Below are positions 5,999 through 32,110 of a stretch of 45,509 nucleotides of DNA, piece by piece. The DNA lies in NCBI GenBank assembly GCA_947588845.1, contig CANQAR010000020.1, positions 1 to 45,509 of the forward strand. Reading direction: 5' to 3'. The translations under genes and the position numbers were made by a program. The notes below the pieces were generated by a model that had not been told where the DNA came from, made no database searches, and saw only the letters and a list, made by a program, of their open reading frames with translations. This stretch comes from an uncultured Lachnospiraceae bacterium. Lineage in GTDB: Bacteria; Bacillota; Clostridia; Lachnospirales; Lachnospiraceae. Numbering within the stretch: position 1 is the first letter of the stretch; each line of letters opens with the position of its first letter.

Positions 5999-6030
5999 TC
6001 AAAGTGCTATAACATTTGGAGGCAGGTTGC

Positions 6031-10086: not shown

Positions 10087-10113
10087 TTTTCTTGATAATT
10101 GGGTGAGAAGATA

Positions 10114-14377: not shown

Positions 14378-14436
14378 TGATCTCCCTGTTCAAATGATCG
14401 GCAAATTCTTTTTTGAGCTTTCGAATGGTGATGTAG

Positions 14437-15912: not shown

Positions 15913-15916
15913 AGTG

Positions 15917-16681
15917 ATGAAGATCATTGGTGTTATTCCTGCGCGTTACAAATCATCCCGTTTTCCCGGAAAGCCGCTGGTAGATATTTGCGGCAAGCCT
16001 ATGGTTTGGTGGACTTATCAGCAGGCAATTCAAGTTACGGAATTCGATGAAGTATATGTGGCAACAGATGATCAGAGGATTTTTGACACTTGCATTGAAT
16101 TAGGTGTGAATGTCATTATGACTTCCGAAGATAATAAGACTGGAACAGATCGTGTTGGAGAGGTTGCCAGAAAAATTCCTGCTGACATTATTGTGAATGT
16201 CCAGGGCGATGAGCCTTTAATGGCTCCAGAGACAATTCGAGCGGCTATTCTTCCGATGATTGACGATCCTTCTATCCAGGTGACTAATCTTATGGCGCGT
16301 ATTACTGATCCTGTTGAATTGATTAATTCGACGATTCCTAAGGTTATAACAAATAAGGATAATATCGGAGTATATATGACGAGAGCGGCAGCACCGTACC
16401 CGAAGGGAAGCATAGATTATCCGTTCTACAAGCAGATTTGCGTTTATGCTTTTAGAACGGATGCTCTTGCTTTCTATTGTGAATACGGAAAGAACTACGG
16501 GAAAGCAAAGATAGAGGCGATCGAAGATATCGAGCTTCTCCGATTCATTGAGAATGGTTATAAGATTAAGTTCATGGAAGTAGAGGTTGAAAGCTTGGCT
16601 GTTGATACGCCCAATGATCTTGATAAGGTTCGCTCCATTATGGCTGCTAAAATAAAGGCGGGCGAAATTAGCAATCACTAA
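15917..16681 (+). CDS. kdsB: KdsB-like CMP-ulosonate synthetase
   Basis: CMP-3-deoxy-D-manno-octulosonate (Kdo) synthetase family, 254 residues. It opens with GVIPARYKSSRFPGKPL (CTP loop) and has KTGTDRVGEVA, IIVNVQGDEPLM and the C-terminal ESLAVDTPNDLDKV. Such enzymes activate 2-keto-3-deoxy sugar acids as CMP derivatives. KdsB usually serves lipopolysaccharide in Gram-negatives. Here no KdsA or KdsC is seen, and the next genes encode an aldolase and a KDG-kinase-like protein. The real substrate may therefore be another ulosonic acid. AAGGAGG at 15901-15907 favours ATG 15917 over GTG 15914. Confidence 0.85.
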   Translation: MKIIGVIPARYKSSRFPGKPLVDICGKPMVWWTYQQAIQVTEFDEVYVATDDQRIFDTCIELGVNVIMTSEDNKTGTDRVGEVARKIPADIIVNVQGDEPLMAPETIRAAILPMIDDPSIQVTNLMARITDPVELINSTIPKVITNKDNIGVYMTRAAAPYPKGSIDYPFYKQICVYAFRTDALAFYCEYGKNYGKAKIEAIEDIELLRFIENGYKIKFMEVEVESLAVDTPNDLDKVRSIMAAKIKAGEISNH

Positions 16682-16700
16682 AGGCTTCGGAGGAATCAGA

Positions 16701-18281: not shown

Positions 18282-18415
18282 AAGAAAGTGCCAGCCGTTG
18301 GTAGAGAATCAGAATACAATCCTTTTAGATGAAATCTTGATGGATGTAAAGAATCAGCCGGAATCTGAAGAAGAGTGTGAATTACGGCTGAGTGACTGCT
18401 TTAGAGGGTATTATT

Positions 18416-19441
18416 ATGAAGGTTATAACATTTGGGGAAATTCTTCTGCGTTTAGCAGCACCAGGATATACAAAACTATTTCAAAAAGACAGCCTTGATT
18501 CCACATTCTGTGGCAGTGAGGCGAATGTTGCCGTCAGCCTTTCCATATTTGGGATGGATTCGTCTTTCGTGACGAAACTACCCGATAACGATGTGGGGTA
18601 TGCTGCTGTAAATTCTATGCGATATTTCGGCGTTGATACAAGTAAGATTATTTATGGCAATGGACGGATGGGTCTTTATTACCTTGAAAAGGGAGCATCG
18701 CAGCGTTCGTCTAAAGTGATCTACGACAGAGAATACTCGGCTATTTCCTTGGCGAAACGAGAGAACTTTGACTGGGATAAGATATTTGATGGTGCAGATT
18801 GGTTCCATTGGACAGGAATTAACCCAGCGCTGTCGGATGAACTTGCCTTGATTTGTGAGGATGCATGTAAAGCGGCGAAGGGAATGGGGCTCACGGTTTC
18901 ATGTGATCTTAACTATCGTGGAAAGCTTTGGAGTCCGAAAAAGGCCCGGACAGTAATGGAGCCGTTTATGAAATATGTGGATATTTGTATTTGCAACGAG
19001 GAGGATGCTGAAAAGGTCTTGGGAATAAAAGCGCCCGATACAGATGTGGAATCCGGAGAACTGAATAATGCGGGCTATGTTCACACAGCGGAGATGATAC
19101 ATAGTCAATATGGGTGTAAGTTTGTAGCGATTACGCTGAGAAAGAGTTTTTCAGCAAGTAGAAATGGATGGAATGCAATGCTTTACGATGCAGAGGCGTT
19201 GGAAAGTTATTTTAGTAGAGAATACAATATTCAAATTGTCGATCGCGTTGGCGGCGGGGACAGTTTTGCCGCAGGGTTGATTTATGCAATGATGCAAAAG
19301 ATGGAATGCCAGGATGCCATTGATTTCGCCACAGCTGCAAGTTGCCTGAAACATACCATTGAGGGAGACTATAACAGGACAACAGTTCAGGATGTTCAAG
19401 CATTGCTTCGATCTGGTGGAAACGGTAGAGTTCAAAGGTAA
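18416..19441 (+). CDS. PfkB-family sugar kinase (KDG kinase-like)
   Basis: Ribokinase-fold kinase of 341 residues. It opens with VITFGEILLRLAAPG, has FCGSEANVAVSLSIFG, and ends with the PfkB signature DRVGGGDSFAAGLIYA, whose aspartate is the catalytic base. The N-terminal pattern is that of 2-keto-3-deoxygluconate (KDG) kinases. Following an aldolase and a CMP-ulosonate synthetase, it probably acts on a keto-deoxy acid or its precursor. ATG 18416 follows AGAGGG; the in-frame GTG 18392 has none. I could assign nothing to the 134 bp before it (18282-18415). Confidence 0.83.
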   Translation: MKVITFGEILLRLAAPGYTKLFQKDSLDSTFCGSEANVAVSLSIFGMDSSFVTKLPDNDVGYAAVNSMRYFGVDTSKIIYGNGRMGLYYLEKGASQRSSKVIYDREYSAISLAKRENFDWDKIFDGADWFHWTGINPALSDELALICEDACKAAKGMGLTVSCDLNYRGKLWSPKKARTVMEPFMKYVDICICNEEDAEKVLGIKAPDTDVESGELNNAGYVHTAEMIHSQYGCKFVAITLRKSFSASRNGWNAMLYDAEALESYFSREYNIQIVDRVGGGDSFAAGLIYAMMQKMECQDAIDFATAASCLKHTIEGDYNRTTVQDVQALLRSGGNGRVQR

Positions 19442-19478: not shown

Positions 19479-20354
19479 ATGCTTACAAGGATACAATTTG
19501 ATATTCTTGAATCTTTAGACTCAGCACCAGATCATGTTGAGTTAAATATTCCTGGTTACAATAAAGAGTTCTTGGATCAGGTGGTTCGAGAATTAGAGGA
19601 ATCGAGGTTCATAAATAAAGGCATAGTTACTTCGGATGGTTACGCGGCGCTTGAACCTTACCGTGTGAAGCGCGCGATATTTATCGCGGCCGGCTTTGGG
19701 ACAAGGCTGGTTCCGGTAACGCTTAATACGCCGAAGCCTCTTGTCCGGGTTCAGGGAAAGCGGATCATTGACGGGCTTATTGACGCGGTTCTGGCAGCGG
19801 GAATCGACGAAATCTATATTGTCCGGGGGTATCTTGCGGAGCAGTTTGACCAGCTGCTCTATAAATACCCGATGATTAAATTTATTGAGAATCCAGCATA
19901 TAACGAAACTAATAATATTTCTTCCGCGTTGTGCGCAAGGTATCTGTTTGGCAATGCGTATTTATTTGAAGCAGATCTGCTGCTTCAAAAACCTGAGCTG
20001 ATTAAGAGATACCAGTATTCTTCCAATTTTCTTGGGTACTGGAAGGAAAGGTCGGATGACTGGTGCTTTACCGTGAAGGACGGATACATAGCGACTCATA
20101 AGATAGGGGGAGTGGACTGTTATCAGGAATACGGCATTTCCTATTGGGATAATGTATCCGGCAGGAAACTGGCGGCGCACATAAAAGAGGCCTATGAAAT
20201 GCCAGGCGGGAAGGAGCTGTTCTGGACGCAGGTGCCGCTCTCGGTATTTCCTAATGAATACAAGGTAGAAGTCCGTGAATGCAGTGAGGGCGATGTGATT
20301 GAAATTGATACTTTCCGTGAGCTGAAGGAAATTGATAAGGCGTATGATGTGTAA
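19479..20354 (+). CDS. LicC/PntC-like nucleotidyltransferase with degenerate N-terminal winged helix, copy 1
   Basis: 291 residues. The first 60 look like a shortened winged-helix (FDILESLDSAPDHVELNI, VVRELEESRFINKG). From about residue 65 follows a nucleotidyltransferase domain: KRAIFIAAGFGTRLVPVTLN, TPKPLVRVQGKRIIDGLID, NISSALCARYLF, FEADLLL and DDWCF. LicC makes CDP-choline; PntC makes CMP-aminoethylphosphonate. Either type of head group would suit LicD. ATG 19479 is taken because the HTH region starts there as in the tandem paralogue, with AAGGGGG about 12 nt ahead. The C-terminal EIDTFRELKEIDKAYDV is nearly identical in both copies. Confidence 0.8.
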   Translation: MLTRIQFDILESLDSAPDHVELNIPGYNKEFLDQVVRELEESRFINKGIVTSDGYAALEPYRVKRAIFIAAGFGTRLVPVTLNTPKPLVRVQGKRIIDGLIDAVLAAGIDEIYIVRGYLAEQFDQLLYKYPMIKFIENPAYNETNNISSALCARYLFGNAYLFEADLLLQKPELIKRYQYSSNFLGYWKERSDDWCFTVKDGYIATHKIGGVDCYQEYGISYWDNVSGRKLAAHIKEAYEMPGGKELFWTQVPLSVFPNEYKVEVRECSEGDVIEIDTFRELKEIDKAYDV

Positions 20355-20459
20355 AATTTTAGATGGCGCTGAATATTTTGGAACTTTGGGATTGATTCAT
20401 AATACGCGCGGAAGACTATAGAAATGGAACGTCGTGGAATGTTTCTAGAAGAGTTATTG

Positions 20460-20488
20460 TTGACAAACAGTGTATTTGCTCTCATAAT
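20460..20488 (+). promoter_or_regulatory. Sigma-70/A promoter for nucleotidyltransferase copy 2
   Basis: TTGACA (20460-20465), 17 bp, CATAAT (20483-20488). This is a near-consensus housekeeping promoter in the 185-bp gap between the tandem nucleotidyltransferase genes. Transcription would start near 20495. The octamer ATGTTCAA (20487-20494) overlaps the -10 end and the start site. Confidence 0.75.
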
Positions 20489-20494
20489 GTTCAA
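20487..20494 (+). promoter_or_regulatory. Candidate operator half-site ATGTTCAA
   Basis: The octamer ATGTTCAA overlaps the downstream edge of the -10 box of the promoter at 20460. The same octamer, once direct and once inverted, brackets the -10 of the promoter at 21516. Its position would let a bound repressor block RNA polymerase. The regulator is unknown. Confidence 0.4.
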
Positions 20495-20539
20495 TATGAT
20501 CTGAAATTTAGATAAAAATGGAACAAAAGGAGCAAAATT

Positions 20540-21433
20540 ATGGGGCTTTCAAGAAAACAGTTTAATATACTTGAGCAGTATGTTGTTTATGGAGAATTGA
20601 CACAGAGGCGGCTCTGTGAACTGACCGGTCAGTCTCTGGGGAGCGTGAACAGGCTTGTTAAAGAACTGACCGGGCTTGGATATGTTTCAAAAGGGAAGAT
20701 TACTTCTGCCGGGCTTGACGCATTGGAACCTTATCGTGTAAAACGGGCCATTTTTCTGGCGGCGGGGTTCAGTGCGCGGCTGATGCCGATTACTTTGAAC
20801 ACGCCGAAGCCGCTGGTCCGGGTGAAAGGGAAACGGATTATCGACGGCCTGATTGACGCGTGTCTGGAAGCGGGAATTGATGAGATTTATATTGTCCGCG
20901 GATATCTGCCGGAGCAGTTTGACCAGCTGCTTTATAAATACCCGATGATTAAGTTCTTGGAGAATCCTCTTTATAACGAGTCGAATAACATTTCTTCTGC
21001 CATGGTTGTCCGGTATATGCTTTCAAATTCCTATGTGTTTGAAGCGGACCTGCTGATCAGCAATCCCCGGATTATAAAACGCTACCAGTACAGCTCCAAC
21101 ATCCTGGGAATCAAAAAGGAGAGAACCGACGACTGGTGTGTGGCTGTCAGGGACGGAATCATTACGGAAGAGAAAATCGGAGGACAGGGTGATGACATCT
21201 GGCGTCTGCTAGGCATTTCCTACTGGTCAGAGCCGGATGGGCACAGGCTTTCCAATGATATCCTTGAGGTGTACCAGGCGCCGGGCGGCAAAGAGAGGTA
21301 CTGGGAACAGGTTCCGCTGCTTTACTGCAGGTCTCACTATGCGGTCGAGATCCGTGCCTGTTCGGAAGAGGACGTTACGGAGATCGATACCTTTCGCGAA
21401 CTAAAGGAAATCGATAAAACCTATGATGTGTAG
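20540..21433 (+). CDS. LicC/PntC-like nucleotidyltransferase with N-terminal winged helix, copy 2
   Basis: 297 residues. Residues 1-60 carry a clear winged HTH (LTQRRLCELTGQSLGSVNRL, VKELTGLGYVSKGKI). The nucleotidyltransferase part starts near residue 69: AIFLAAGFSARLMPITLN, TPKPLVRVKGKRIIDGLID, NISSAMVVRYML, FEADLLI and DDWCV. It is a close tandem paralogue of 19479 and has its own promoter and a strong AAAGGAGC site. Known relatives attach CMP to phosphocholine (LicC) or to aminoethylphosphonate (PntC). The nearby PEP mutase favours a phosphonate. The fused DNA-binding domain raises the possibility of self-regulation. Confidence 0.82.
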   Translation: MGLSRKQFNILEQYVVYGELTQRRLCELTGQSLGSVNRLVKELTGLGYVSKGKITSAGLDALEPYRVKRAIFLAAGFSARLMPITLNTPKPLVRVKGKRIIDGLIDACLEAGIDEIYIVRGYLPEQFDQLLYKYPMIKFLENPLYNESNNISSAMVVRYMLSNSYVFEADLLISNPRIIKRYQYSSNILGIKKERTDDWCVAVRDGIITEEKIGGQGDDIWRLLGISYWSEPDGHRLSNDILEVYQAPGGKERYWEQVPLLYCRSHYAVEIRACSEEDVTEIDTFRELKEIDKTYDV

Positions 21434-21480
21434 GAGGAAGATGACTGGAAAGTTCACTATAACAGAATAATAAATAATTT

Positions 21481-21487
21481 TTGAACA
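21481..21487 (-). promoter_or_regulatory. Upstream operator half-site (TTGAACA)
   Basis: TTGAACA lies 29 bp upstream of the -35 box of the operon promoter, in the same orientation as the copy at 21555. It matches the heptamer but not the full octamer (here followed by G). It may be an auxiliary site; a chance match is possible. Confidence 0.3.
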
Positions 21488-21515
21488 GAAAAAGGTGTAT
21501 TTTTCTTTAAATCAC

Positions 21516-21544
21516 TTGACATATGTTCAAAAAATGAATATAAT
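21516..21544 (+). promoter_or_regulatory. Sigma-70/A promoter of the transporter-phosphonate operon
   Basis: TTGACA (21516-21521), 17 bp, TATAAT (21539-21544): a perfect consensus pair. It lies about 50 bp before the solute-binding protein gene and probably drives the run of same-strand genes to 31371. Two inverted octamers lie inside and just after it. Confidence 0.85.
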
Positions 21545-21562
21545 CTCCGTATAATTGAACAT
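21523..21562. promoter_or_regulatory. Inverted-repeat operator ATGTTCAA ... TTGAACAT
   Basis: ATGTTCAA (21523-21530) between the -35 and -10 boxes faces TTGAACAT (21555-21562) just after the expected transcription start. Their centres are 32 bp apart, about three helical turns. This arrangement is typical of a repressor that grips both sides of the -10 region. The same octamer is found at the promoter of the upstream nucleotidyltransferase. Confidence 0.5.
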
Positions 21563-21594
21563 TCAGAATGGATGGTTAAAGGAGGAGATTTAAA

Positions 21595-22632
21595 GTGAAA
21601 AAGATGGCATCTGGAATTTTTATATTTACGCTGCTGGCAGCACTGGCGCTGCCTGTTTATGGACTGGCGGACGAGACTGAATCCATAAGTCCCGCTGCGC
21701 CGGAAGCCTCTGCAGAACTGGACACCAGCAGCAATAAAGTTGTGATCTATTCCGGCGCTGAAGAGTACCGCAATGAATATTTTCTGGAACGTCTTAAGGA
21801 AGAATTCCCGGATTATGACATTTCTATTGAATACATGCCTACCGGCAATCTGGCTGCCAAACTGGCGGCAGAGGGCAGTGATACGGACATGGATATCTTT
21901 TATGATCTTGATTTCAGTTATGCGGGGCTTGTGGAAGAGTACCTTGCGGATGTATCCGCCTACGACCAGTCGATCTATGTGGATGACTGCAAGGTTGAGG
22001 GAGGACATTATCTTGCCGCGACGAGAAACGGAGGCGCCGTCATTATCAATCCCGATGTATTGGAAGAGAACGGTATTGAGGAACCGGCCAGTTATGCGGA
22101 CCTTTTGAAGCCGGAATTTAAGGGACTTGTTTCCATGCCGGATCCCAAGTCTTCCGGAACAGGATATATGTTTGTCAAGAGTCTTGTGAATGCCTGGGGT
22201 GAAGAGGAGGCTTTTGATTATTTTGACAGTCTCGCGGAAAATATCCTGCAGTTCACATCTTCTGGTTCCGGCCCCGTAAACGCGCTGATTCAGGGGGAAG
22301 CCGCGGTTGGACTTGGCATGACCGCGCAGGCTGTGACGGCTATCAATGAAGGCGCGAACCTGAAAATCTTGTTCTTCGAGGAAGGTTCTCCGTATTCCCT
22401 GTATGGATATGCGATCCCGAAAGGGAAAGAAACCAGGAAAGCGGTCAAGGATGTTTTTGATTTCTTCTATACCACGCTGGTCCTTGAGGATAAGGAGCTT
22501 TATTATCCGGAACAGGTATTCGTCGGACAGGTGAATGAGATTGAAAATTTCCCGAAGGATATTGAGTATTCCGATATGTCCGGCAACACAACAGAAGAGA
22601 AGATGAGGCTTCTTGAGAACTGGGAGTACTGA
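21595..22632 (+). CDS. ABC transporter solute-binding protein (AfuA/PhnS-like)
   Basis: Periplasmic-binding-protein-like lipid-free or exported protein of 345 residues, with a signal peptide of about 25 residues (charged MKKMA, hydrophobic core, VYGLA). The mature part has KVVIYSGAEEYRNEYFLERL and MPDPKSSGTGYMF, features of the family that binds ferric iron, putrescine or 2-aminoethylphosphonate. No clear lipobox cysteine is visible. GTG 21595 follows GGAGGAG at good distance. Its company (ATPase, fused permease, PEP mutase) makes a phosphonate ligand attractive but unproven. Confidence 0.82.
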   Translation: MKKMASGIFIFTLLAALALPVYGLADETESISPAAPEASAELDTSSNKVVIYSGAEEYRNEYFLERLKEEFPDYDISIEYMPTGNLAAKLAAEGSDTDMDIFYDLDFSYAGLVEEYLADVSAYDQSIYVDDCKVEGGHYLAATRNGGAVIINPDVLEENGIEEPASYADLLKPEFKGLVSMPDPKSSGTGYMFVKSLVNAWGEEEAFDYFDSLAENILQFTSSGSGPVNALIQGEAAVGLGMTAQAVTAINEGANLKILFFEEGSPYSLYGYAIPKGKETRKAVKDVFDFFYTTLVLEDKELYYPEQVFVGQVNEIENFPKDIEYSDMSGNTTEEKMRLLENWEY

Positions 22633-22646
22633 AACAGAATTTTTCA

Positions 22647-22680
22647 GGAGGTGAAGGGTAAAAACTTCCCTCCTTTCTTA
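22647..22680 (+). terminator. Intra-operon hairpin with T-rich tail
   Basis: GGAGGTGAAG (22647-22656) pairs with CTTCCCTCC (22665-22673) around a short A-rich loop, followed by TTTCTTATTAT. It lies between the binding-protein gene and the ATPase gene. Such stems often let the binding protein be made in excess of the membrane parts. It may be only a partial terminator or an mRNA-stabilising stem. Confidence 0.55.
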
Positions 22681-22740
22681 TTATCAGGGAATCCTCCTGC
22701 AGGATCGGACGGCAGGGGATCAATTGACAGGGGAATGTAT

Positions 22741-23535
22741 ATGGACAAAATTATTGTTAGCAATCTTTCGAAAGCATTTGGTCAGACAGGTGTACTGCAT
22801 GATGTCAGCTTTACAGTGAAAGACGGGGAGTTTCTGTCGATTCTTGGTCCTTCCGGATGCGGCAAGACGACAATCCTGCGTATACTGATTGGGCTTGAGT
22901 CAGCGGACAGCGGCAGGATTGTCAAAGACGGGAAGGATATTACAAATGTTTCCCCTGCCATGAGAAAGATGGGCATTGTATTTCAGAACTATGCTTTGTT
23001 TGAAAATATGACTGTCCTTCGCAATGTGGAATATGCGCTCAGGAAAAGTGCGTCTACGAAAGACAGCTATGACAGAGACAGCGCGAAAAGGAAAGCCGAA
23101 GAGATGCTTGCCCTGGTGGGGCTTTCAGAGCATATCAATAAAAAGCCACGCCAGCTTTCTGGCGGACAGCAGCAGAGGGTCGCCATAGCGAGAACGCTTG
23201 CGCTTAATCCTGACGTCATTCTTTTTGATGAACCGATGTCTGCGCTGGATGTGGATACAAGGTTGTCCCTGCGTGTGGAACTGAAGGAACTCCAAAAGAA
23301 ATTTGGTAATACGATGATTTATATTACGCATGATCAGGAAGAGGCCTTTGCGATGTCGGACCGGATCATGGTCATGGACGCAGGGGTTATCCATCAGCTG
23401 GATACGCCGCATAATATCATTGATCATCCTGCCGACGACTACGTGAAAAGGTTTGTAATCAGGAATATCAATATAAAGATTAATTCTTTGATTCAGTTTG
23501 CGCGCGCAGCTGAAGTAACGGAGGAAAAAAGATGA
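22741..23535 (+). CDS. ABC transporter ATPase
   Basis: ABC ATPase of 264 residues: Walker A GPSGCGKTT, Q-loop VFQNYALFE, signature LSGGQQQR, Walker B VILFDEP, and H-loop ITHDQEEA. This fits the importer class of FutC/PotA/PhnT. No TOBE domain follows the ATPase core. ATG 22741 is used because AGGGGA precedes it at proper spacing. The stop overlaps the permease ATG (ATGA). Confidence 0.9.
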   Translation: MDKIIVSNLSKAFGQTGVLHDVSFTVKDGEFLSILGPSGCGKTTILRILIGLESADSGRIVKDGKDITNVSPAMRKMGIVFQNYALFENMTVLRNVEYALRKSASTKDSYDRDSAKRKAEEMLALVGLSEHINKKPRQLSGGQQQRVAIARTLALNPDVILFDEPMSALDVDTRLSLRVELKELQKKFGNTMIYITHDQEEAFAMSDRIMVMDAGVIHQLDTPHNIIDHPADDYVKRFVIRNINIKINSLIQFARAAEVTEEKR

Positions 23536-25106
23536 GGCGGAAATGGACTCCTTCAACGGCACTGAAACTTCTTCTCTGTGTATTCTGGCTTGTCTCGATC
23601 ATTCTTCCGTTGGTCAGGATGCTGTCAAATATGGCTTCGGTTGATGTGCTGTCGGTAATGACAACGAGAAAGTTTTCCAGAGCGTTAAAGCAGTCCCTGT
23701 TCGTTTCAGGTACTGCGACAGTGATTTCCGTATCTCTTGCCGGGCTTCTTTCCTGGGCTGTCGCGAGGACAAATATAAGGCATAAGACTCTGGTTAATAC
23801 GCTGCTGACGGTTCCGATGCTTATTCCGTCGATCTCCCACGGCATGGGGCTGATCATTATCCTTGGAGCGAACGGATGGCTTTCCAGACTTATTGGACTG
23901 GATAATGGAATCTATGGTTTTTGGGGGATTGTTATTGGTTCGGTAATGTATTCATTTCCCGTGGCGTACCTGATGCTTTACGATGTGCTCAGGTATGAAG
24001 ACGGGACGCCGTATGAGGCGGCGGAGGTAATGGGCCTTAAAACAGGAGACCGGTTCTCTGCCATTACGTTTCCATACCTGCGGAAGCCTCTCATTTCAGT
24101 AATCTTTGCGACGTTTACAATGATTATTACGGATTACGGTGTTCCGCTTATGGTTGGAGGAAAATTTACGACGCTGCCGGTCATGATGTACCAGGATGTG
24201 ATAGGCATGCTGGATTTTGGCAAGGGTTCCGTGATAGGCATGATCCTGCTGGTTCCTGCGCTGATTGCCTGTATTCTTGATATGATGAACAGGGATAAAG
24301 GAAACGTTGCTTTTGTCGGGAAAGCGTATGAAATAAAGGACAATAAGGCAAGGGATACTGCGGCAAAAGTGATTTGTGTTGTGGTTGTAATTCTGGTGTT
24401 TTTGCCGATCGGATCTTTTTCTGTCCTGTCGTTTGTAAATAAATATCCGATTGATATGACCTTCTCCTTGTCAAACGCGGATCAGGCGGTACAGATGGGG
24501 GCAATGAAGTATTTGAGGAACTCGCTGATTATTGCGGCAGTAGTATCGGTCTTTGGCACTGCTCTGGCAGTTTTCAACGCGTACATGACGGCAAGGAATA
24601 AGACAAAGCTGAGCTACCCGCTTCATTTGATGTCGATCATGTCGCTGGCAGTTCCCGGACTGGTGCTGGGTCTGTCATATGTCATGTTTTTTAAAGGGAC
24701 GGTTTTATACGGGACCTTTGCGATCCTGTTCCTTGTAAATTCGATGCACTTTTTCTCATCGCCTTATCTGATGGCCTACAATACGTTCGGGAAGATTAAT
24801 GAGAATCTGGAAAATGTTGGGGCCGCGATGGGGATCAGCCGGTGGGCAGTCACGAAAGATGTGATTCTTCCGCAGGCAAGAGGCACAATCCTGGAAATGA
24901 TGAGTTATTTTTTTGTCAACTGCATGATGACCATTTCAGCAGTTTCGTTTCTGGCAAATGTATCAGATAAACCAATTGCTCTTATGATCACACAGTTTGA
25001 GGGACAGATGCAGCTGGAATGCGCCGCGTTTGTTTCGCTTATTATATTTCTGGTGAACGTGGGCATGAAATACTGCGTTTATGTGGTAAAAAAGAAAACA
25101 GCCTAG
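23532..25106 (+). CDS. ABC transporter permease, two fused transmembrane domains
   Basis: 524 residues with about twelve membrane helices in two BPD_transp-type halves. Each half carries an EAA loop that docks on the ATPase: YEAAEVMGLKTGDRFSAITF in the first and ENVGAAMGISRWAVTKDVIL in the second. Fused permeases of this type occur in iron(III) (FbpB/FutB) and 2-aminoethylphosphonate (PhnU/PhnV-like) importers. The start is translationally coupled to the ATPase. With the binding protein it forms a complete importer. Confidence 0.88.
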   Translation: MRRKWTPSTALKLLLCVFWLVSIILPLVRMLSNMASVDVLSVMTTRKFSRALKQSLFVSGTATVISVSLAGLLSWAVARTNIRHKTLVNTLLTVPMLIPSISHGMGLIIILGANGWLSRLIGLDNGIYGFWGIVIGSVMYSFPVAYLMLYDVLRYEDGTPYEAAEVMGLKTGDRFSAITFPYLRKPLISVIFATFTMIITDYGVPLMVGGKFTTLPVMMYQDVIGMLDFGKGSVIGMILLVPALIACILDMMNRDKGNVAFVGKAYEIKDNKARDTAAKVICVVVVILVFLPIGSFSVLSFVNKYPIDMTFSLSNADQAVQMGAMKYLRNSLIIAAVVSVFGTALAVFNAYMTARNKTKLSYPLHLMSIMSLAVPGLVLGLSYVMFFKGTVLYGTFAILFLVNSMHFFSSPYLMAYNTFGKINENLENVGAAMGISRWAVTKDVILPQARGTILEMMSYFFVNCMMTISAVSFLANVSDKPIALMITQFEGQMQLECAAFVSLIIFLVNVGMKYCVYVVKKKTA

Positions 25107-25134
25107 AATATTTTTGAGATATGAGGAATATGAA

Positions 25135-26436
25135 ATGAAAGTTGTTTATACTTGTTTCTGCACGGATGTTATTCATGAAGGACATCTCAATATCATCAAT
25201 GAAGCGCAGAAGCTGGGCGAAGTAACCGTCGGTGTTCTGGCCGATGCGGCAAGTATCCGATATAACAGGTTTCCGGCGGTCAGCCTCGAGGAACGCATCA
25301 GGCTGGTTGAAGCTATACCGGGTGTCGCGCATGTCATTGTACAGAATGAGATCATGTATGACGAAATTTTTGAACGGCTCCATCCGGATTATATTGTTCA
25401 CGGGGACAACTGGTCTTTACCGTCCATGCAGGCAATTTATCAGAATATCAAAAATCTGATAAAGAAATATGGGGGTGAACTGGTAGAAATTCCATACACC
25501 TACAGCGAGAATGTGCAGCGGACGGATCATCAGATGATAGAGAAGCTGGCAATGCCGGAATTCCGCAGAGGAAGGCTCCGCAAGCTGCTGCAGATGGTGC
25601 CCATTGTGAAAACAATTGAGGTACACAGCGGGCTTACCGGACTGATTGCTGAAAAGACGGTTGTTGTTGACGGCGAAACAATTGACCAGTTTGACGCAAT
25701 GTGGATTTCTTCTCTTTGCGACAGTACTGAAAAAGGGAAGCCGGATATTGAACTGGTGGATATGACCAGCCGTTTCCAGACGATTGAAGATGTCATGGAA
25801 GTAACGACGAAACCGGTTATTTTTGACGGGGATACCGGCGGATTGACCGAGCATTTTGTTTATACGGTGAGATCTCTGGAACGTATGGGGGTTTCGGCCG
25901 TTATTATCGAGGACAAGACCGGCCTTAAAAAGAATTCTCTTTTCGGTACGGAGGTTGAGCAGACGCAGGCAGGCATTGAGGACTTCAGCGCAAAAATAGC
26001 CGCTGGAAAAAAGGCGCAGCTTTCGGATGATTTTATGATCATTGCCAGAATTGAAAGCCTGATTCTGGAGCAGGGCATGGAGGATGCGCTGAAGAGGGCG
26101 AGGGCTTTCGTGGAGGCGGGAGCTGACGGCATTATGATTCACAGCAGGCGGAAAGAGCCGGATGAGATTCTGGAATTCTGTGATAAATTCAGGGCGGAAA
26201 ATAAGGAAACTCCCCTCGTGGTAGTCCCGAGTTCCTTCAATGTTGTCACAGAGGAAGAGCTTGCCGCGCACGGGGTCAATATTTGTATCTATGCAAACCA
26301 GCTGCTCAGGGCGGCATTCCCGGCGATGGAAAATGCCGCAAAAAGTATTCTGAAACATCACCGCGCAAAAGAGATTGACAGTGAGCTGATGCCGATTAAA
26401 CAGATCATCACGCTGATTGATGAGATAAATTATTAG
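25135..26436 (+). CDS. pepM: Cytidylyltransferase-PEP phosphomutase fusion
   Basis: 433 residues, two domains. Residues 1-140: HIGH-type nucleotidyltransferase, with VIHEGHLNIINEAQKLGE (H14xxH17) and YIVHGDNWS. Residues about 145-433: phosphoenolpyruvate mutase barrel with FDGDTGG, the diagnostic EDKX5NS (EDK at 259-261, NS at 267-268) and MIHSRRKEPDEI. PEP mutase converts PEP to phosphonopyruvate, the entry to nearly all natural phosphonates. The EDKX5NS motif separates it from isocitrate lyase relatives. The attached cytidylyltransferase probably activates a phosphonate product as a CMP ester. ATG 25135 follows GAGGAA; TTG 25114 does not. Confidence 0.9.
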   Translation: MKVVYTCFCTDVIHEGHLNIINEAQKLGEVTVGVLADAASIRYNRFPAVSLEERIRLVEAIPGVAHVIVQNEIMYDEIFERLHPDYIVHGDNWSLPSMQAIYQNIKNLIKKYGGELVEIPYTYSENVQRTDHQMIEKLAMPEFRRGRLRKLLQMVPIVKTIEVHSGLTGLIAEKTVVVDGETIDQFDAMWISSLCDSTEKGKPDIELVDMTSRFQTIEDVMEVTTKPVIFDGDTGGLTEHFVYTVRSLERMGVSAVIIEDKTGLKKNSLFGTEVEQTQAGIEDFSAKIAAGKKAQLSDDFMIIARIESLILEQGMEDALKRARAFVEAGADGIMIHSRRKEPDEILEFCDKFRAENKETPLVVVPSSFNVVTEEELAAHGVNICIYANQLLRAAFPAMENAAKSILKHHRAKEIDSELMPIKQIITLIDEINY

Positions 26437-26458
26437 GACGCAGAGAAAGCAGGGGCTT

Positions 26459-27185
26459 ATGTACGCGATATTGTCAGACATTCACGGAAATATGACCGCG
26501 TTGGAACGGGTTGTTGAGGACATGCGTTTTTTTGAGATAGACGGGATCATTCTTCTCGGCGACCTTATTGACTACGGGATGCAGTCCAATGAAGTTGTGG
26601 AATATATACGTCTCCGGCTGCAGGATAAAGTCATCTGCAGTATTTGGGGAAACCATGAGCGGGCGATTCTGACTTCAGATTTTGGAAGGTTTTCCAGCCG
26701 GAGAGGTGCGGAATGCGCCAGGCATACAGCTTCCCGGCTTTCAGGGGAGACCCGCCGGTATCTTTCGGAAAAGATGAATCATGAAGGGCTGTATGAATTT
26801 GAACTGGGGGGGCAGAAAAGCTCTTGCTGTACATGGTTCACTCGAAGACCGGTACTGGAAGGCAGTCGGGCCGGAAAACGTTAGAGGGGATTACAGTTCC
26901 TATGATGTTGTTTTTTCTGGACATTCGCATTACACGCACATGTTTACCAGGTTTTATGACCATGCGGATCCGGAAAGAAGAAACAAGCATGCGGTCCTGT
27001 TTATCAATCCGGGCTCAGTCGGACAGCCCAGGAATCATAATCCGGCCGCGCAGTATGCACTGCTGGATACCAGAACGATGGCGGTGGTTCTCCGGGCAGT
27101 TCCATACGATGTTGAAGCGGCCATGGCATCCTACGATGGCAGCGTTGATGACTTTTATCGGGCAAGACTGAAAACGGGCGTGTAA
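26459..27185 (+). CDS. Metallophosphoesterase, frameshifted in a G7 run
   Basis: Calcineurin-like phosphoesterase. Motifs seen are SDIHGN (DxH), LLGDLIDYG (GD), WGNHERA (GNHE) and FSGHSHYTHMF (GHxH). As read, the frame starting at ATG 26459 stops at 26884 after entering nonsense at the seven-G run 26806-26812. With six G's the chain continues as RKALAVHGSLEDRYW to TAA 27183-27185, giving about 242 residues, the usual size. The remaining motifs all sit in the second frame. It lies between PEP mutase and SDR genes and may hydrolyse a phospho- or nucleotide-phosphonate intermediate, which is inference only. Confidence 0.8.
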
Positions 27186-27205
27186 AAAAGAAAGTGGAGG
27201 CAGTT

Positions 27206-28216
27206 ATGAAGAGACTATACGTGATCAGCGGGGTGACCGGGATGACCGGAAATGAACTTGTCCGGCAGATCCTGACCGACGGGGCTGAAGATAAAATCAT
27301 TGGTTTTGATAATTTTTATGCATCATCGATCGATACGGTAAAAGACCGTATTGATGACGAACGTTTTGCGTTTTTTGAATATGATTTGAATAATGAGGAG
27401 CAGATGCGCGCGGTTGAAGAGCTTGCGGCTTCTGAGAAAGACAAGTATGAAGAGCTTGTCTATATCAATTGCGCGGCTGTCGTCCATACGGAACATTTTT
27501 ATCATGTTTATGAAACCTTTGAGACAAATGTAAAAGGCATGAATTCTTTCCTGGAGCAGGCAGTCAGGGTGGGCGCCCAAAAATATATTAACTGTTCTAC
27601 CTCGGAAGTTTATTCCATGAATTCCTGGAATGAAACCGGCGGCGTAAAAGAGGATGATTATATCACCATGGCTGATGCAGAACACAGCCAGAGGACCAGC
27701 TATGCCGTGGGAAAGCTGCTGACGGAATTTTTCCTGAAGGATGCCGTGGACGCGGGAAAGATTAAAGGCTGTTCTATCCGGTTTGCCAACGTTTACAGCC
27801 GGAATGAGCGGTTCCCGAAGCACATCATACCGTTTATCATCAACAGTTTCAAGAATGAAGGGAAGGTAGTCCTGCTTGAAAACAGCAGAAAAAACAGAAG
27901 GACATTTTTGAATAACTATGACAGCTGCAGTGCTGTTCTTGCTCTGGTAAATACAGACACGGCCCTTGACGGGACCATATATAATGTTGCGACAGATGAG
28001 GAGATCTCGATCATTGATCTGGCAGAGCTCTGTGCCAGGATGATGGGAATTGAAAATCCTGTGATTGAATTCAGCGGGTACAGACAGTCTGACCCGGAAA
28101 GGCGGCTGCTGTCCACAGAGAAAATAAGGACCCGCACGAACTGGAGCCCCAGAGTCGATCTTGAGAAAGGGCTGAAAGAATGTATCAGAAACTATCTGGC
28201 AGGAAGTGAATCATGA
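27206..28216 (+). CDS. NAD-dependent epimerase/dehydratase (extended SDR)
   Basis: 336 residues. GVTGMTGNELV forms the Rossmann loop, INCSTSEVYSMNSW the catalytic serine region, and YAVGKLLTEFF the YxxxK pair. SIRFANVYSRNERFP is a substrate-domain signature. ATG 27206 is favoured because GGAGG lies 8 nt ahead, whereas GTG 27194 would precede that site. The next gene starts inside its stop codon (ATGA). In a phosphonate operon it may reduce or modify the phosphonate aldehyde or the nucleotide-linked product; it could also serve a sugar. Confidence 0.8.
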   Translation: MKRLYVISGVTGMTGNELVRQILTDGAEDKIIGFDNFYASSIDTVKDRIDDERFAFFEYDLNNEEQMRAVEELAASEKDKYEELVYINCAAVVHTEHFYHVYETFETNVKGMNSFLEQAVRVGAQKYINCSTSEVYSMNSWNETGGVKEDDYITMADAEHSQRTSYAVGKLLTEFFLKDAVDAGKIKGCSIRFANVYSRNERFPKHIIPFIINSFKNEGKVVLLENSRKNRRTFLNNYDSCSAVLALVNTDTALDGTIYNVATDEEISIIDLAELCARMMGIENPVIEFSGYRQSDPERRLLSTEKIRTRTNWSPRVDLEKGLKECIRNYLAGSES

Positions 28217-28992
28217 AATCAGTAATTATCACAATCGCAGGGGTTTCAAGCCGGTTTAACATGGGGATACCGGAACAGGAGAAAGTTCTGAAGGCGATCT
28301 ACTGGGAGGATAACCCGGAAGATACGCTTTTACGGCACCTTTTAATGAAGTGTGTTTTTGCAGATAAAATTATTCTTGTCGGGGGCTACCAGTTTGACAA
28401 ACTGAGGCAGTTTGTTGACAAGAACCTCAGGAAAGAATTTCCCAATATTGTTTTGATCAAAAATGAACATTATGAAGATCTGGCGTCAGGGTACAGCCTG
28501 TATCTTGGAATCAGAGAGGCAGTTAAAGCGGGAAGCAGTGAGGTACTTTTTGCAGAAGGGGACCTGGATATTGACGGGGAATCGTTTGCGTCGGTTTCCG
28601 GTTCAAAAAAATCCGTTCTGACGTATACAAAGGAACCGATTTATGCCAGCAGGGCGGTTGTCCTTTACCAGGATCAGGCGGGGAGATATAAATATGCATT
28701 CAATTGTGATCATGGAATGCTTACGATCAACGAGCCTTTTCTGGCTGTCTTTAATTCAGGCCAGGTATGGAAATTTATGGATATCGACGCCCTGAAGAAA
28801 GCAAACGATGCGTTTTTCCTTGAAGAAAAGGGAGGAACTAATCTGAAAATCATTCAGCGTTATATAGAAGCCGCAGATCCCAGGGAAATGGAGCTGCTGT
28901 GCCTGGAGCGATGGACCAATTGCAATACACGGGATGATTATAAGACAATCAGAAATTATTGGAGAGAAGAAAAATTACAAAGGAAAGAATGA
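28213..28992 (+). CDS. GT-A-fold nucleotidyltransferase-like protein
   Basis: 259 residues. The N-terminus IITIAGVSSRFNMGIPEQEK has the sugar-nucleotidyltransferase loop form (AGxSSRF). VLFAEGDLDIDGESF occupies the place of the metal-binding aspartates. The remainder is unlike the LicC-type proteins upstream. It probably transfers a nucleotidyl group, but the substrate is unclear. It overlaps the upstream SDR gene by ATGA, and a gap of 61 bp follows. Confidence 0.65.
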   Translation: MKSVIITIAGVSSRFNMGIPEQEKVLKAIYWEDNPEDTLLRHLLMKCVFADKIILVGGYQFDKLRQFVDKNLRKEFPNIVLIKNEHYEDLASGYSLYLGIREAVKAGSSEVLFAEGDLDIDGESFASVSGSKKSVLTYTKEPIYASRAVVLYQDQAGRYKYAFNCDHGMLTINEPFLAVFNSGQVWKFMDIDALKKANDAFFLEEKGGTNLKIIQRYIEAADPREMELLCLERWTNCNTRDDYKTIRNYWREEKLQRKE

Positions 28993-29053
28993 ATTCAGGC
29001 AGAGTTTTTATAACGTCTGATGCCTGAGCAGAGTGAAAGGAGCGGTTATAAAC

Positions 29054-30241
29054 ATGAGAACTTTGCAGGACAGGCTGGCCGCAGTCGAAACGCATGTCAG
29101 GAATGACAATGTTACGGTGATGATCATTGGTCTGGGAAGCGTCGGGACATACCTTCTTGACTATCTGGTAAGCAGGAACGACGAGGCGGTAAAAGTGGTA
29201 GTCGTCGGCCGTAACTACGAAAAGATGGAGAAAAACGTGAACATTGTCCGTGTAGCGGCGCTGATCCGGGGACTGAACAGGACGGCTATTCAGATTCAGG
29301 GCGGTGTGGATTTTACGGATGTGGACTCTGTTCAGGCGGCGATTGAAAAGTACGAGCCTGATTTTATCGTAAATTCGAGCCGGGCCTATCCGGGGCTTAA
29401 ATATGGAAGCATCAGCTGGGCGAATGTCAGGGCCTATGGGATCTGGACGCCTCTGGCGATCCGCTTTACCAAGAATGTCATGGAAGCCTGTGACAAAGCG
29501 GATACGAATGCCGTGGTTATTAATACTTCCTATTCGGATGCAGTGATCCCCTGGCTGAAAAGCGCGGGAAAAGCCTATCCTGATTTTGGAAGCGGGAATA
29601 TGAACCATCTGATTCCCCGTATCAAATTTGCCGCGGCCGAAATGCTGGGGATAAAAGATTTCTGGAATGTGGACGTCATGTTTGCGGCGGGACATTTCCA
29701 TGATGTATGTATCAGCAAGGAAGGCCAGACGGAGGGCGTAAACCTGCCGCTTAAAATTTATTATGAGGGGAAAGAGGTGCATCTTGACCACAACGAGATT
29801 TTCAGCCGCTGCAAAATTGCAATGCCTGTAGACGCGCAGAGGAACATGATGAACGCCTCCAGCGATTATCAGATTATTGAAGCGGTAATCAATGCCGTGA
29901 GAACCGGAGAGGGCCATAGGGTATTCATCCCGGGGGCATTTGGCGAAATTGGAGGATACCCTGTTCTGATTGGATACAGGGAAAACAGGCTGGATGCCTG
30001 GATTGATGAATCGGTTTTCAGCTTTGACGAGATGAATAAGGCGGACAGATTATCCATGGCGCTTGACGGTGTTGAGGATGTAGTTAATGGAACACTGGTT
30101 TATACAGACCATCTGATTGAGAAAGCCAGGAAGGCTTTTGGCGTGGAGCTGCCAAAGAAAGTGGCTTTTGATGATATTGAAAAGACGGCGAAATTTATAA
30201 TTGACGAGATTATTACTCCACAGCTGGCAAAGAAGGAATAA
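29054..30241 (+). CDS. Rossmann-fold oxidoreductase of unknown substrate
   Basis: 395 residues. MIIGLGSVGTYLLDYLVSRND forms an NAD(P) loop, and VNSSRAYPG and NTSYSDAVIPW follow. I do not recognise a specific family; the layout recalls saccharopine-dehydrogenase-like or lactate/malate-like Rossmann proteins. ATG 29054 has AAAGGAGC in front; GTG 29033 does not. It lies 5 bp from the phosphonopyruvate decarboxylase gene. A role as reductase of phosphonoacetaldehyde is possible, because that enzyme's product is unstable and no transaminase is nearby. This is inference. Confidence 0.55.
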   Translation: MRTLQDRLAAVETHVRNDNVTVMIIGLGSVGTYLLDYLVSRNDEAVKVVVVGRNYEKMEKNVNIVRVAALIRGLNRTAIQIQGGVDFTDVDSVQAAIEKYEPDFIVNSSRAYPGLKYGSISWANVRAYGIWTPLAIRFTKNVMEACDKADTNAVVINTSYSDAVIPWLKSAGKAYPDFGSGNMNHLIPRIKFAAAEMLGIKDFWNVDVMFAAGHFHDVCISKEGQTEGVNLPLKIYYEGKEVHLDHNEIFSRCKIAMPVDAQRNMMNASSDYQIIEAVINAVRTGEGHRVFIPGAFGEIGGYPVLIGYRENRLDAWIDESVFSFDEMNKADRLSMALDGVEDVVNGTLVYTDHLIEKARKAFGVELPKKVAFDDIEKTAKFIIDEIITPQLAKKE

Positions 30242-30246
30242 CACAT

Positions 30247-31371
30247 ATGAAAGTAGAAAAATTCGTGGAAACGATCGGGGCGGACTTTTACACAGGGGTG
30301 CCGGACAGTCAGCTGAGGGCATTATGTGATTACCTGATGCACACCTATGGAATCGACCCCAGGCACCATATCATTGCGGCCAACGAGGGAAACTGCACTG
30401 CGCTGGCTGCCGGCTATCACCTTGCTACCGGCAAAGTTCCTGTAGTATACATGCAGAATTCCGGTGAGGGAAATATTATCAACCCGGCTGCCAGCTTGCT
30501 GAATGATAAGGTTTATGCGATCCCGTGTGTATTCATCATCGGCTGGCGGGGCGAGCCGGGCGTTCACGACGAACCACAGCATATCTATCAGGGCGAGGTG
30601 ACGCTCAGACTGCTTGAAGACATGGACATCGCGCATTTTGTCATCTCGAAAGAAACAACAGAGAACGAGCTTGCTGCAAAGATGGCGGAATTCAGAGAAA
30701 TTCTTACGGCCGGAAAACAGACTGCGTTTGTCGTCAGAAAGAGTGCACTTGAGTTTGACGGCAAGGTCAAATACGAAAACAGCAGCTCCATGACCCGTGA
30801 AGATATTATCAGGCATGTTGTGGAGTTTACCGGTGACGACCCGATTGTCTCAACTACCGGTAAGGCCAGCCGTGAGCTGTTTGAAATCCGTGAGGCGAGG
30901 AGTGAGGGACACGAAAAAGACTTCCTGACCGTCGGATCAATGGGGCACGCATCGTCAATCGCGCTTGGCATCGCCATTCAGAAACCGGACAGGAAGATCT
31001 GGATCATTGACGGCGACGGCGCGGTTTTGATGCATATGGGCGCGATGGCAGTGATTGGCGCAAATGCTCCGAAAAATCTTGTTCATATCGTTATAAATAA
31101 CGGTGCGCACGAGACAGTTGGCGGTATGCCGACGGTTGCCGGGAAGATCGACCTTGTGACAATTGCGAAAGGCTGTGGCTATGCGAGTGCAGTAAGTGTG
31201 AACAGTTTTGAAAAGCTTGGCGCAGAACTGGAAGCCGCCAGGCTGAGAAACGAGCTGAGCCTGATTGAAGTCAAATGCTCTATTGGTGCAAGAGAGGATT
31301 TAGGAAGACCGACAACCACGGCGAGGGAGAATAAGAAGAATTTTATGAAATTCATTGGATCTTGTGCTTAG
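30247..31371 (+). CDS. ppd: Phosphonopyruvate decarboxylase
   Basis: ThDP enzyme of 374 residues that decarboxylates phosphonopyruvate to phosphonoacetaldehyde, pulling the unfavourable PEP mutase reaction forward. The N-terminal pyrimidine-binding half has FYTGVPDSQLRAL, ANEGNCTALAAGYHLATG, VVYMQNSGEGN and GWRGEPGVHDEPQH, all typical of Ppd. The C-terminal half carries the ThDP motif GDG (256-258) ... NN (284-285). The length is the family's usual size. It begins 5 bp after the Rossmann oxidoreductase and closes the operon. Confident assignment. Confidence 0.92.
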   Translation: MKVEKFVETIGADFYTGVPDSQLRALCDYLMHTYGIDPRHHIIAANEGNCTALAAGYHLATGKVPVVYMQNSGEGNIINPAASLLNDKVYAIPCVFIIGWRGEPGVHDEPQHIYQGEVTLRLLEDMDIAHFVISKETTENELAAKMAEFREILTAGKQTAFVVRKSALEFDGKVKYENSSSMTREDIIRHVVEFTGDDPIVSTTGKASRELFEIREARSEGHEKDFLTVGSMGHASSIALGIAIQKPDRKIWIIDGDGAVLMHMGAMAVIGANAPKNLVHIVINNGAHETVGGMPTVAGKIDLVTIAKGCGYASAVSVNSFEKLGAELEAARLRNELSLIEVKCSIGAREDLGRPTTTARENKKNFMKFIGSCA

Positions 31372-31483: not shown

Positions 31484-32110
31484 TTATACGTCCACCTCTT
31501 GAGATAGTTCAAGTAATTTCTTTAAATCCTTATCATATTTTGTTTTTCTAATCTCTTCAGAGGATAGCTGAGAAAAAAGATAATTCAGTACCTCTTCTGA
31601 AAAACATGCTAAATCCCATATTTGATATGTTTTGAGCTTTAATTTACTATTTTGAAGTTTTTCTCCAAAATATTGTGGATCGTTATGTGCATGGATTGAA
31701 TTCCGCACTTTTCTAAGGGTTTCAATAGTCTTCTTTCTTTCAGCCAAGCCTTTTTCAAACTCTTCTAATTTCAATAATGTATTATCCATTGATGGGAACA
31801 AATGAATATAAGATTTACATTCTTGGATTAAATTAGGAATAGTTTTTGGTTTTTTTGGTTTATTTTTTGTTTCTTCAGATGCATTTTTTGCTTTTCCAAA
31901 TTTATCATATAATCTTGCTAAAATAAGTATATAACTATCTATTAATGCAGATTCTATAATCAGTGTGAAATTAGGAGCACATTTCATTTTTTCTTCATTA
32001 TTTCTAATATCGTCTTCAACACTTAGCAGGTCTTTCAAGTAAACCAATTGCATTAAATACCCATCAATATCTTTTATCATGTCCTCTTTCTTTTTTTCTT
32101 GTTGACTCAT
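31484..32110 (-). CDS. HEPN-domain protein (AbiU2-like)
   Basis: 208-residue helical protein. It carries the HEPN RNase signature R-X5-H at R136 to H142 in KVRNSIHAHND, with an NxxHxHxD pattern resembling AbiU2-type HEPN proteins. A lysine-rich stretch (about residues 72-90) divides two helical parts. AGGAGGA lies 9 nt ahead of the start. HEPN proteins of this type are often toxins or abortive-infection ribonucleases. It stands alone, divergent from mobile-element scraps, with no visible antitoxin partner. Confidence 0.6.
   Translation of the reverse strand: MSQQEKKKEDMIKDIDGYLMQLVYLKDLLSVEDDIRNNEEKMKCAPNFTLIIESALIDSYILILARLYDKFGKAKNASEETKNKPKKPKTIPNLIQECKSYIHLFPSMDNTLLKLEEFEKGLAERKKTIETLRKVRNSIHAHNDPQYFGEKLQNSKLKLKTYQIWDLACFSEEVLNYLFSQLSSEEIRKTKYDKDLKKLLELSQEVDV

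Follow-up and report, generated by a model that had tools for sequence, protein, structure and literature searches.

A conserved phosphonate cassette without a recognised 2-aminoethylphosphonate transaminase in an uncultured Lachnospiraceae bacterium and its relatives

Genes of the phosphonate block

Contig CANQAR010000020.1 of an uncultured Lachnospiraceae bacterium (GCA_947588845.1; genome completeness 96.93%) was analysed over 45,509 nucleotides, the whole stretch being referred to here as the window, and the interval 19479-31371 within it holds a block of phosphonate genes (Table 1). Its core is a cassette encoding a phosphoenolpyruvate (PEP) mutase (PepM), a metallophosphoesterase, a short-chain dehydrogenase/reductase (SDR), a DUF6564 nucleotidyltransferase, a dehydrogenase and a phosphonopyruvate decarboxylase (Ppd), in an order that varies among genomes. 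The capacity to form phosphonoacetaldehyde without a 2-aminoethylphosphonate (AEP) transaminase is real, and is usual for this cassette. The remainder of the interval, 19479-25106, is a separate module of two LicC-like cytidylyltransferases (ntpA and ntpB), at least one of them with a winged helix, and an ATP-binding cassette (ABC) importer.

A first-pass annotation, made from the letters of the window, had reported a PEP mutase with an EDKX5NS motif, a phosphonopyruvate decarboxylase with GDG...NN, two Rossmann oxidoreductases and four nucleotidyltransferase domains, and all of these were recovered. PepM and Ppd exceed their cut-offs, which are curated TIGR family bit scores; EDKX5NS is invariant in 17 aligned PepM sequences, and GDG...NN is seen in the translation. 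The oxidoreductases are the SDR, of the extended type, and the dehydrogenase, and the nucleotidyltransferase domains are those of ntpA, ntpB, the PepM N-terminus and DUF6564. The importer (21595-25106) and the metallophosphoesterase, which is split, were absent from that list, and both lie inside the interval.

PepM has the cytidylyltransferase-PEP mutase architecture of Fom1 from fosfomycin biosynthesis. The closest PDB match of its N-terminus is 5x3d (E 3.6e-29; entry title: phosphoenolpyruvate phosphomutase), which we take to be the Fom1 cytidylyltransferase-PEP mutase. In the PepM alignment (A1; the window sequence plus 16 of the 22 open reading frames (ORFs) called, one of which contains a run of N) the HxGH motif of the N-terminal domain has invariant G23 and H24, and H21 is nearly so.

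Table 1. Features of the phosphonate block and candidate glycan transferases in the window
Feature	Position	Strand	Evidence or remark
LicD-family transferase (candidate)	6016-6864	+	PF04991 E 2.9e-38; link to cassette inferred
LicD-family transferase (candidate)	9256-10086	+	PF04991 E 1.8e-43; link to cassette inferred
LicD-family transferase (candidate)	10099-10944	+	PF04991 E 1.9e-43; link to cassette inferred
ntpA, LicC-like cytidylyltransferase with N-terminal extension	19479-20354	+	mechanical ORF from 19359; NTP_transferase; LicC 1jyk E 9.9e-28; PntC 6pd1 E 1.4e-12
Promoter-like site before ntpB	20460-20488	+	11/12 to consensus; TGTTCA half-site at 20488
ntpB, MarR-type winged helix and LicC-like cytidylyltransferase	20540-21433	+	MarR_2/HTH_24, NTP_transferase; LicC 1jyk E 2.1e-26; PntC 6pd1 E 3.1e-9
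Operator-like inverted repeat	21452-21486		GTTCA-N25-TGAAC
Promoter-like site before importer and cassette	21516-21544	+	sigma-70-type, 12/12 (TTGACA-17-TATAAT)
Operator-like inverted repeat	21525-21560		GTTCA-N26-TGAAC; overlaps promoter
ABC substrate-binding protein, PhnS2-like	21595-22632	+	best match TIGR03261, 165.8 bits (cut-off 392.75)
ABC ATP-binding protein, PhnT2-like	22651-23535	+	best match TIGR03265, 321.8 bits (cut-off 457.7)
ABC permease, PhnU2-like	23532-25106	+	best match TIGR03262, 371.1 bits (cut-off 593.25)
PepM, Fom1-like cytidylyltransferase domain fused to PEP mutase	25114-26436	+	TIGR02320, 406.1 bits (cut-off 319.55); N-terminal CTP_transf_like
Metallophosphoesterase, two overlapping ORFs in different frames	26459-26884 and 26781-27185 (whole 26459-27185)	+	
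Extended SDR, NDP-sugar type	27206-28216	+	mechanical ORF from 27194
DUF6564 nucleotidyltransferase	28213-28992	+	PF20202 E 3e-93
Dehydrogenase, lactate/malate dehydrogenase fold	29054-30241	+	mechanical ORF from 29033; modelled structure; Pfam: weak Sacchrp_dh_NADP
Ppd, phosphonopyruvate decarboxylase	30247-31371	+	TIGR03297, 466.8 bits (cut-off 312.5)

Distribution of the cassette and of transaminases

A scan with the dehydrogenase encoded from 29054 returned 31 loci, many titled Lachnospiraceae, Ruminococcus or Butyrivibrio and several from rumen samples, and the gene set, at times incomplete, was found again in 31 other genomes, a recurrence that places the cassette above chance. Counts were made on 36 loci, 34 of them distinct (L055 repeats L024 and L057 repeats L029), and on 37 genome handles, two of them duplicates (G538 equals G075 and G673 equals G080, with identical coordinates), which leaves 35 distinct genomes that carry the dehydrogenase; the genome-level counts rest on draft genomes, in which genes may be missed. 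The dehydrogenase was present in all 36 loci, DUF6564 in 34, the metallophosphoesterase in 32, the SDR in 31, Ppd in 30 and PepM in 29 (34, 32, 30, 29, 28 and 27, respectively, with duplicates removed), and at some loci (L013, L054, L056 and L058) absences are explained by contig ends. At the level of distinct genomes, Ppd exceeds its cut-off in 35 of 35 and PepM is found in 34, over the cut-off in 33 and partial in G090; it is missing in G022, whose dehydrogenase contig ends nearby. Counting the window genome each time, the core was seen in two genomes among 60 relatives, in one of the 398 making up a phylum sample and in five of the 397 making up a family sample, and in the last of these DUF6564 and the dehydrogenase mark the identical five genomes. 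Two named Butyrivibrio records (L019 and L021), not labelled as metagenome assemblies, also carry the core. This is a conserved yet patchy cassette of Lachnospiraceae and relatives, and no description of it was among the open-licence papers listed by literature searches.

The first-pass annotation also held that the window lacks an AEP transaminase, and that its lone aminotransferase, at 843, is truncated and of sugar type; both points stand. The sole aminotransferase found by family scans of the window is of the DegT/DnrJ type (843-1979), and its match begins at profile position 34, the first 33 positions being absent. Across the window genome the AEP transaminase family TIGR03301 (PhnW/AepZ) gave six weak matches and none over the cut-off (best 52.5 against 360.8 bits), other aminotransferase families not having been tested. 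Among the 35 distinct genomes the family exceeds its cut-off in three, and 28 have no match at E 1e-20, including G070 and G072, the genomes of the Butyrivibrio loci L019 and L021; weak matches are common, 12 of 14 control genomes giving one at the same E-value. A true AEP transaminase lies within the cassette at L015, with its own LicC-like gene, and in genome G068 an AEP operon (L059), composed of a LicC-like gene with an N-terminus of helix-turn-helix length, an AEP transaminase, PepM and Ppd, occupies a different contig from the cassette (L017).

Other enzyme modules accompany the cassette in some genomes. MobA-(cytidylyltransferase)-iron-dependent alcohol dehydrogenase (Fe-ADH) proteins, or adjoining pairs, occur in 7 of the 35 genomes and stand beside the cassette at three loci, where a MobA-like nucleotidyltransferase, a Fom1-like cytidylyltransferase and an Fe-ADH form a triple fusion (L013:1724-3970, L016:11194-13437 and, as two ORFs, L022:1462-4108); at L016 and L022 the module is in the same gene run as the cassette. 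A module of this cassette-linked type had no match in the window genome (G000) at E 1e-40, where other Fe-ADHs are possible. Six of the 35 genomes have matches, covering both domains at least in part, to fusions of MobA with a class I/II aminotransferase, possibly another kind of AEP-forming enzyme; examples lie at L038:4284-6125, beside PepM, and at L034:11273-13075 (domains scanned in L038 only), and none was found in the window genome at E 1e-30. At L028:13329-15731, on the minus strand and opposite to the cassette, a PhnW-like class V aminotransferase (138.4 bits, below the cut-off) is accompanied by genes for a DUF2284 protein and a MobA-like protein, a set that is a possible further head-group module. 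None of the three enzyme modules, with the transaminase counted over its cut-off, is found in 21 of the 35 genomes, the window genome included (20 on including the weak match in G079, the genome of L028), and 16 of those 21 also have no importer module next to the cassette.

Tailoring enzymes and the importer module

In a fold comparison, the matches listed for the whole model of the 29054 protein are lactate dehydrogenase (LDH) and malate dehydrogenase (MDH), and profile alignment shows that the protein retains the LDH-type GxGxxG and GSG...R. By the residue roles of LDH, R196, which does not vary among the 28 members, aligns by hhalign with the arginine that binds the substrate carboxylate, whereas His192 occupies the position of the catalytic aspartate; His221 falls in the LDH register only by an ungapped reading, hhalign placing a gap there. 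The protein further differs from the known enzymes in a long, poorly modelled loop with invariant residues of its own and in the absence of Ldh_1 from the Pfam matches of the 28 members, across all of which Sacchrp_dh_NADP is the commonest weak match. A saccharopine dehydrogenase acting by reductive amination, as the Pfam match had suggested, was considered for this protein and set aside, since in the window protein residues 29-116 alone match, that is, the N-terminal Rossmann part, and the whole model matches LDH/MDH. The dehydrogenase alignment (A2) joins the window sequence to 27 of 30 ORFs (L009, L032 and L039 left out, L028 and L029 without a called ORF); the SDR alignment (A3) has 21 of 25 ORFs besides the window sequence, and that of DUF6564 (A4) has 21 of 30 besides it. 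A5 holds 10 of 11 LDH matches, L069 having failed an ORF filter. When A2 and A4 were run as profiles against PDB sequences, there were no matches.

DUF6564 shows nucleotidyltransferase motifs on reading of the alignments, and at a PntC amine-contact position it has glutamate in 22 of 22 rows, where the Fe-ADH-linked transferases have histidine in seven of seven. Its E-x-D pocket pattern is common to the transaminase-linked transferases. (In the NTP-transferase alignment the L072 row is the second, aminotransferase-type match; the L072 Fe-ADH fusion was read separately.) Two observations run counter to an argument from pocket residues: the extra LicC-like gene of L056 has cysteine at that position, and the second PntC position is threonine in ntpA and L020a and aspartate, as in LicC, in L015 and L060, which are linked to AEP transaminases.

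Both ntpA and ntpB align across the whole catalytic domain of LicC (CTP:phosphocholine cytidylyltransferase, 1jyk), which, unlike ntpB, has no winged helix in front; the N-terminal extension of ntpA resembles the winged helix of ntpB and has no Pfam match. In ntpA a glutamate lies two residues before the metal-binding aspartate, as in Tde-PntC. In ntpB both PntC amine-contact positions are glutamate, as in Tde-PntC, where LicC has aspartate, and ntpB is probably an AEP-type cytidylyltransferase by these residues. Another genome encodes a homologue of ntpB with 64% identity directly next to an AEP transaminase, PepM and Ppd. The best NCBIfam matches of the three importer subunits are to the putative 2-AEP transporter PhnS2/T2/U2, each below its equivalog cut-off. 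According to the first-pass annotation, oxidoreductases and nucleotidyltransferases fill one operon in place of the transaminase; such enzymes are indeed there, but the block consists of two modules, and two of the nucleotidyltransferases go with the AEP-type importer, so that AEP may still reach the surface by import. The LicC-like and importer module is found in the window, L020, L026, L028 and L029, not all of which show both LicC-like genes in the available stretch. It seems to be gained or lost as a unit, because L023 has upstream capsule genes in common with the window yet has PepM directly after a pfkB gene.

The two promoter sites are the only places in the window where GTTCA and TGAAC are spaced by 25 or 26; a spacing of 24 occurs once, within ntpB, and pairs at other spacings (0-40) at six further places. 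Such repeats are also present in the matching regions of L020, L026, L028 and L029, allowing one changed base in a half-site, and upstream of the L059 AEP operon, and the two elements start 73-74 bp apart in four of five importer promoter regions (94 in L026). Eight regions (1581 bases) contain 16 copies of TGTTCA/TGAACA against 1.63 in shuffles (sd 1.19; maximum 6 in 500 shuffles), and 18 control regions of 200 bases each, upstream of cassettes without LicC-like genes, contain one; these counts are descriptive, since there is some homology among the eight regions and the motif had already been seen when the controls were picked. Promoter-like sites are somewhat above chance in the region (43 against 31.0 expected, sd 5.7), and terminators give no signal (12 against 13.9 expected). 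To judge from the placing of the repeats, the LicC-like winged-helix proteins are likely enzyme-regulator fusions, in which the winged helix probably recognises GTTCA-N25/26-TGAAC and controls the importer and cassette.

Possible products of the cassette

Two phosphonate branches may be joined at this locus, both feeding a surface glycan, and our confidence in this reading is evenly divided. In the de novo branch, which is the core, PepM would convert PEP to phosphonopyruvate and Ppd would convert this to phosphonoacetaldehyde, as assigned from their families; the LDH-fold dehydrogenase and the SDR would then turn phosphonoacetaldehyde into a second phosphonate, X, without a pyridoxal phosphate (PLP)-dependent transaminase. 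DUF6564, perhaps with the Fom1-like domain of PepM, would activate X with cytidine monophosphate (CMP) to CMP-X, and a LicD- or Glyphos_transf-type enzyme would set X on a capsule or teichoic-type glycan. In the optional salvage branch the PhnS2/T2/U2-like importer would bring in AEP and the LicC-like enzymes would make CMP-AEP, with the winged-helix part controlling importer and cassette from the inverted repeats. The likeliest identity for X is some simple phosphonoacetaldehyde derivative. Hydroxyethylphosphonate (HEP) is the leading single guess, and within the two-branch reading it is nevertheless somewhat less probable than all other products taken together.

A number of observations weigh against this scheme. 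What the dehydrogenase and SDR catalyse, what DUF6564 acts on, transfer by LicD, import of AEP and regulation are all predictions; the importer subunits all fall short of equivalog level, and the operator motif was spotted by eye in the same regions in which it was later counted. The PepM cytidylyltransferase domain may not have kept the ISSTT-like C-terminal motif of Fom1-type cytidylyltransferases, the stretch aligned to PGIS of Fom1 differing in 17 of 17 sequences. Core genes are missing from L009, L014, L016, L031, L032, L033 and L039 despite at least 6 kb on one side, and L033 has only the dehydrogenase and metallophosphoesterase. The latter is split in the window, by assembly error or decay of the gene, and is a single ORF of 242-279 aa in 28 relatives. 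The glutamate in the DUF6564 pocket favours an amine in X. Four further genomes have PhnW-like matches of 137-140 bits, below the cut-off, and that of L028 adjoins the cassette of an importer-type locus, which may have a divergent transaminase. LicD, finally, is found in only 12 of 36 locus stretches. The first-pass annotation had placed the block in a LicD context, and glycan-type transferases are sometimes near the cassette (Glyphos_transf in some loci), but the window LicD genes lie at least 8.5 kb upstream of the interval; LicD as a constant partner was rejected on the 12 of 36 count. As a whole, that earlier interpretation is partly supported.

The proposal that X is 2-hydroxyethylphosphonate, with the LDH-fold enzyme or the SDR reducing phosphonoacetaldehyde and the Fom1-like domain of PepM, DUF6564 or both forming CMP-HEP, is unlikely as a full account. 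It would fit the PDB match of the PepM N-terminus to 5x3d (again taken to be Fom1), the presence of Ppd in all 35 genomes, and the MobA/cytidylyltransferase/Fe-ADH fusions, which suggest joint action of such domains. Fom1 acts on HEP according to the main text of PMC6697681. Yet 7 of 35 genomes combine the cassette with Fe-ADH modules resembling the HEP route, at L016 and L022 in one gene run, so the core may make something else, which also weighs on the two-branch reading to the extent that X is HEP; moreover, the pocket glutamate of DUF6564 is at odds with the histidine of the Fe-ADH-linked transferases, and the SDR is left without a role.

Should an unrecognised aminotransferase elsewhere in the genome make plain AEP, the dehydrogenase and SDR serving another step, the E-x-D pocket of DUF6564 would be as expected, as would the AEP-type look of the importer, the aminotransferase-MobA fusion beside PepM in L038 (six of 35 genomes) and the PhnW-like enzymes below the cut-off in four genomes, one adjoining the L028 cassette. 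We nevertheless regard this as quite improbable: TIGR03301 is absent over its cut-off from 32 of 35 genomes and at E 1e-20 from 28, weak matches being usual in controls, and the fusion was not found in the window genome. It is a little less probable still that the SDR, DUF6564 and dehydrogenase supply an acceptor in the form of an activated sugar or polyol, PepM and Ppd alone acting on phosphonates, since the three co-occur almost strictly with PepM and Ppd while surrounding genes vary between loci, and phosphonoacetaldehyde would be left without an enzyme in core-only genomes. Reduction of phosphonopyruvate, an oxaloacetate isostere, to phosphonolactate for activation would suit the modelled LDH/MDH fold and R196 (28 of 28), which aligns with the substrate-carboxylate arginine of LDH, but is the least probable route and was set aside as the main product, because Ppd, present in 35 of 35 genomes, would be superfluous and would divert the substrate, and His192 replaces the catalytic aspartate.

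Beyond the two-branch reading, the cassette could represent a third class of head-group module beside transaminase-PntC (AEP) and Fe-ADH-MobA (probably HEP), a proposal we regard as doubtful: a PLP-free LDH-fold dehydrogenase with DUF6564, and an SDR acting on a CMP-phosphonate as if on a nucleotide sugar, would yield an undescribed surface phosphonate, combinable with AEP salvage under cytidylyltransferases that double as DNA-binding regulators. To our knowledge few surface phosphonate head groups other than AEP-like ones have been described, and the core without a transaminase in two named Butyrivibrio records makes others directly testable. Rumen ciliates are rich in AEP, and AEP scavenging would therefore suit rumen bacteria; if true, the importer and self-regulating cytidylyltransferases would be a phosphonate counterpart of lic-gene choline scavenging. 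In the phosphonyl tailoring (Pnt/PntC) pathways (Rice et al. 2019, PMC6697681), PepM is likewise fused to or near nucleotidyltransferases, with the same logic of CMP activation and LicC-like enzymes; unlike them, the cassette has an LDH-fold dehydrogenase, an SDR and DUF6564 in place of an AEP transaminase. The abstract of that paper states that most bacterial phosphonate capacity serves surface tailoring with molecules like AEP, and the words Lachnospiraceae, Butyrivibrio, helix-turn-helix and transporter do not occur in its main text.

Upstream of the block, 13349-19441 carries genes for an HMGL-like aldolase, a KDG-kinase-like PfkB, a CTP_transf_3 cytidylyltransferase (15914-16681) and a polysialyltransferase-like protein (13349-14377), common to the window and L023, which perhaps make an unusual acidic capsule sugar. 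Downstream, genes for an AbiU2-type HEPN protein, a GmrSD N-terminal domain protein and an AAA ATPase domain protein (31484-32110, minus strand, and 38246-40047, plus strand) are possible defence genes, and the locus may border a mobile element, because an IS66-type transposase lies at 44705-45490 (minus strand).

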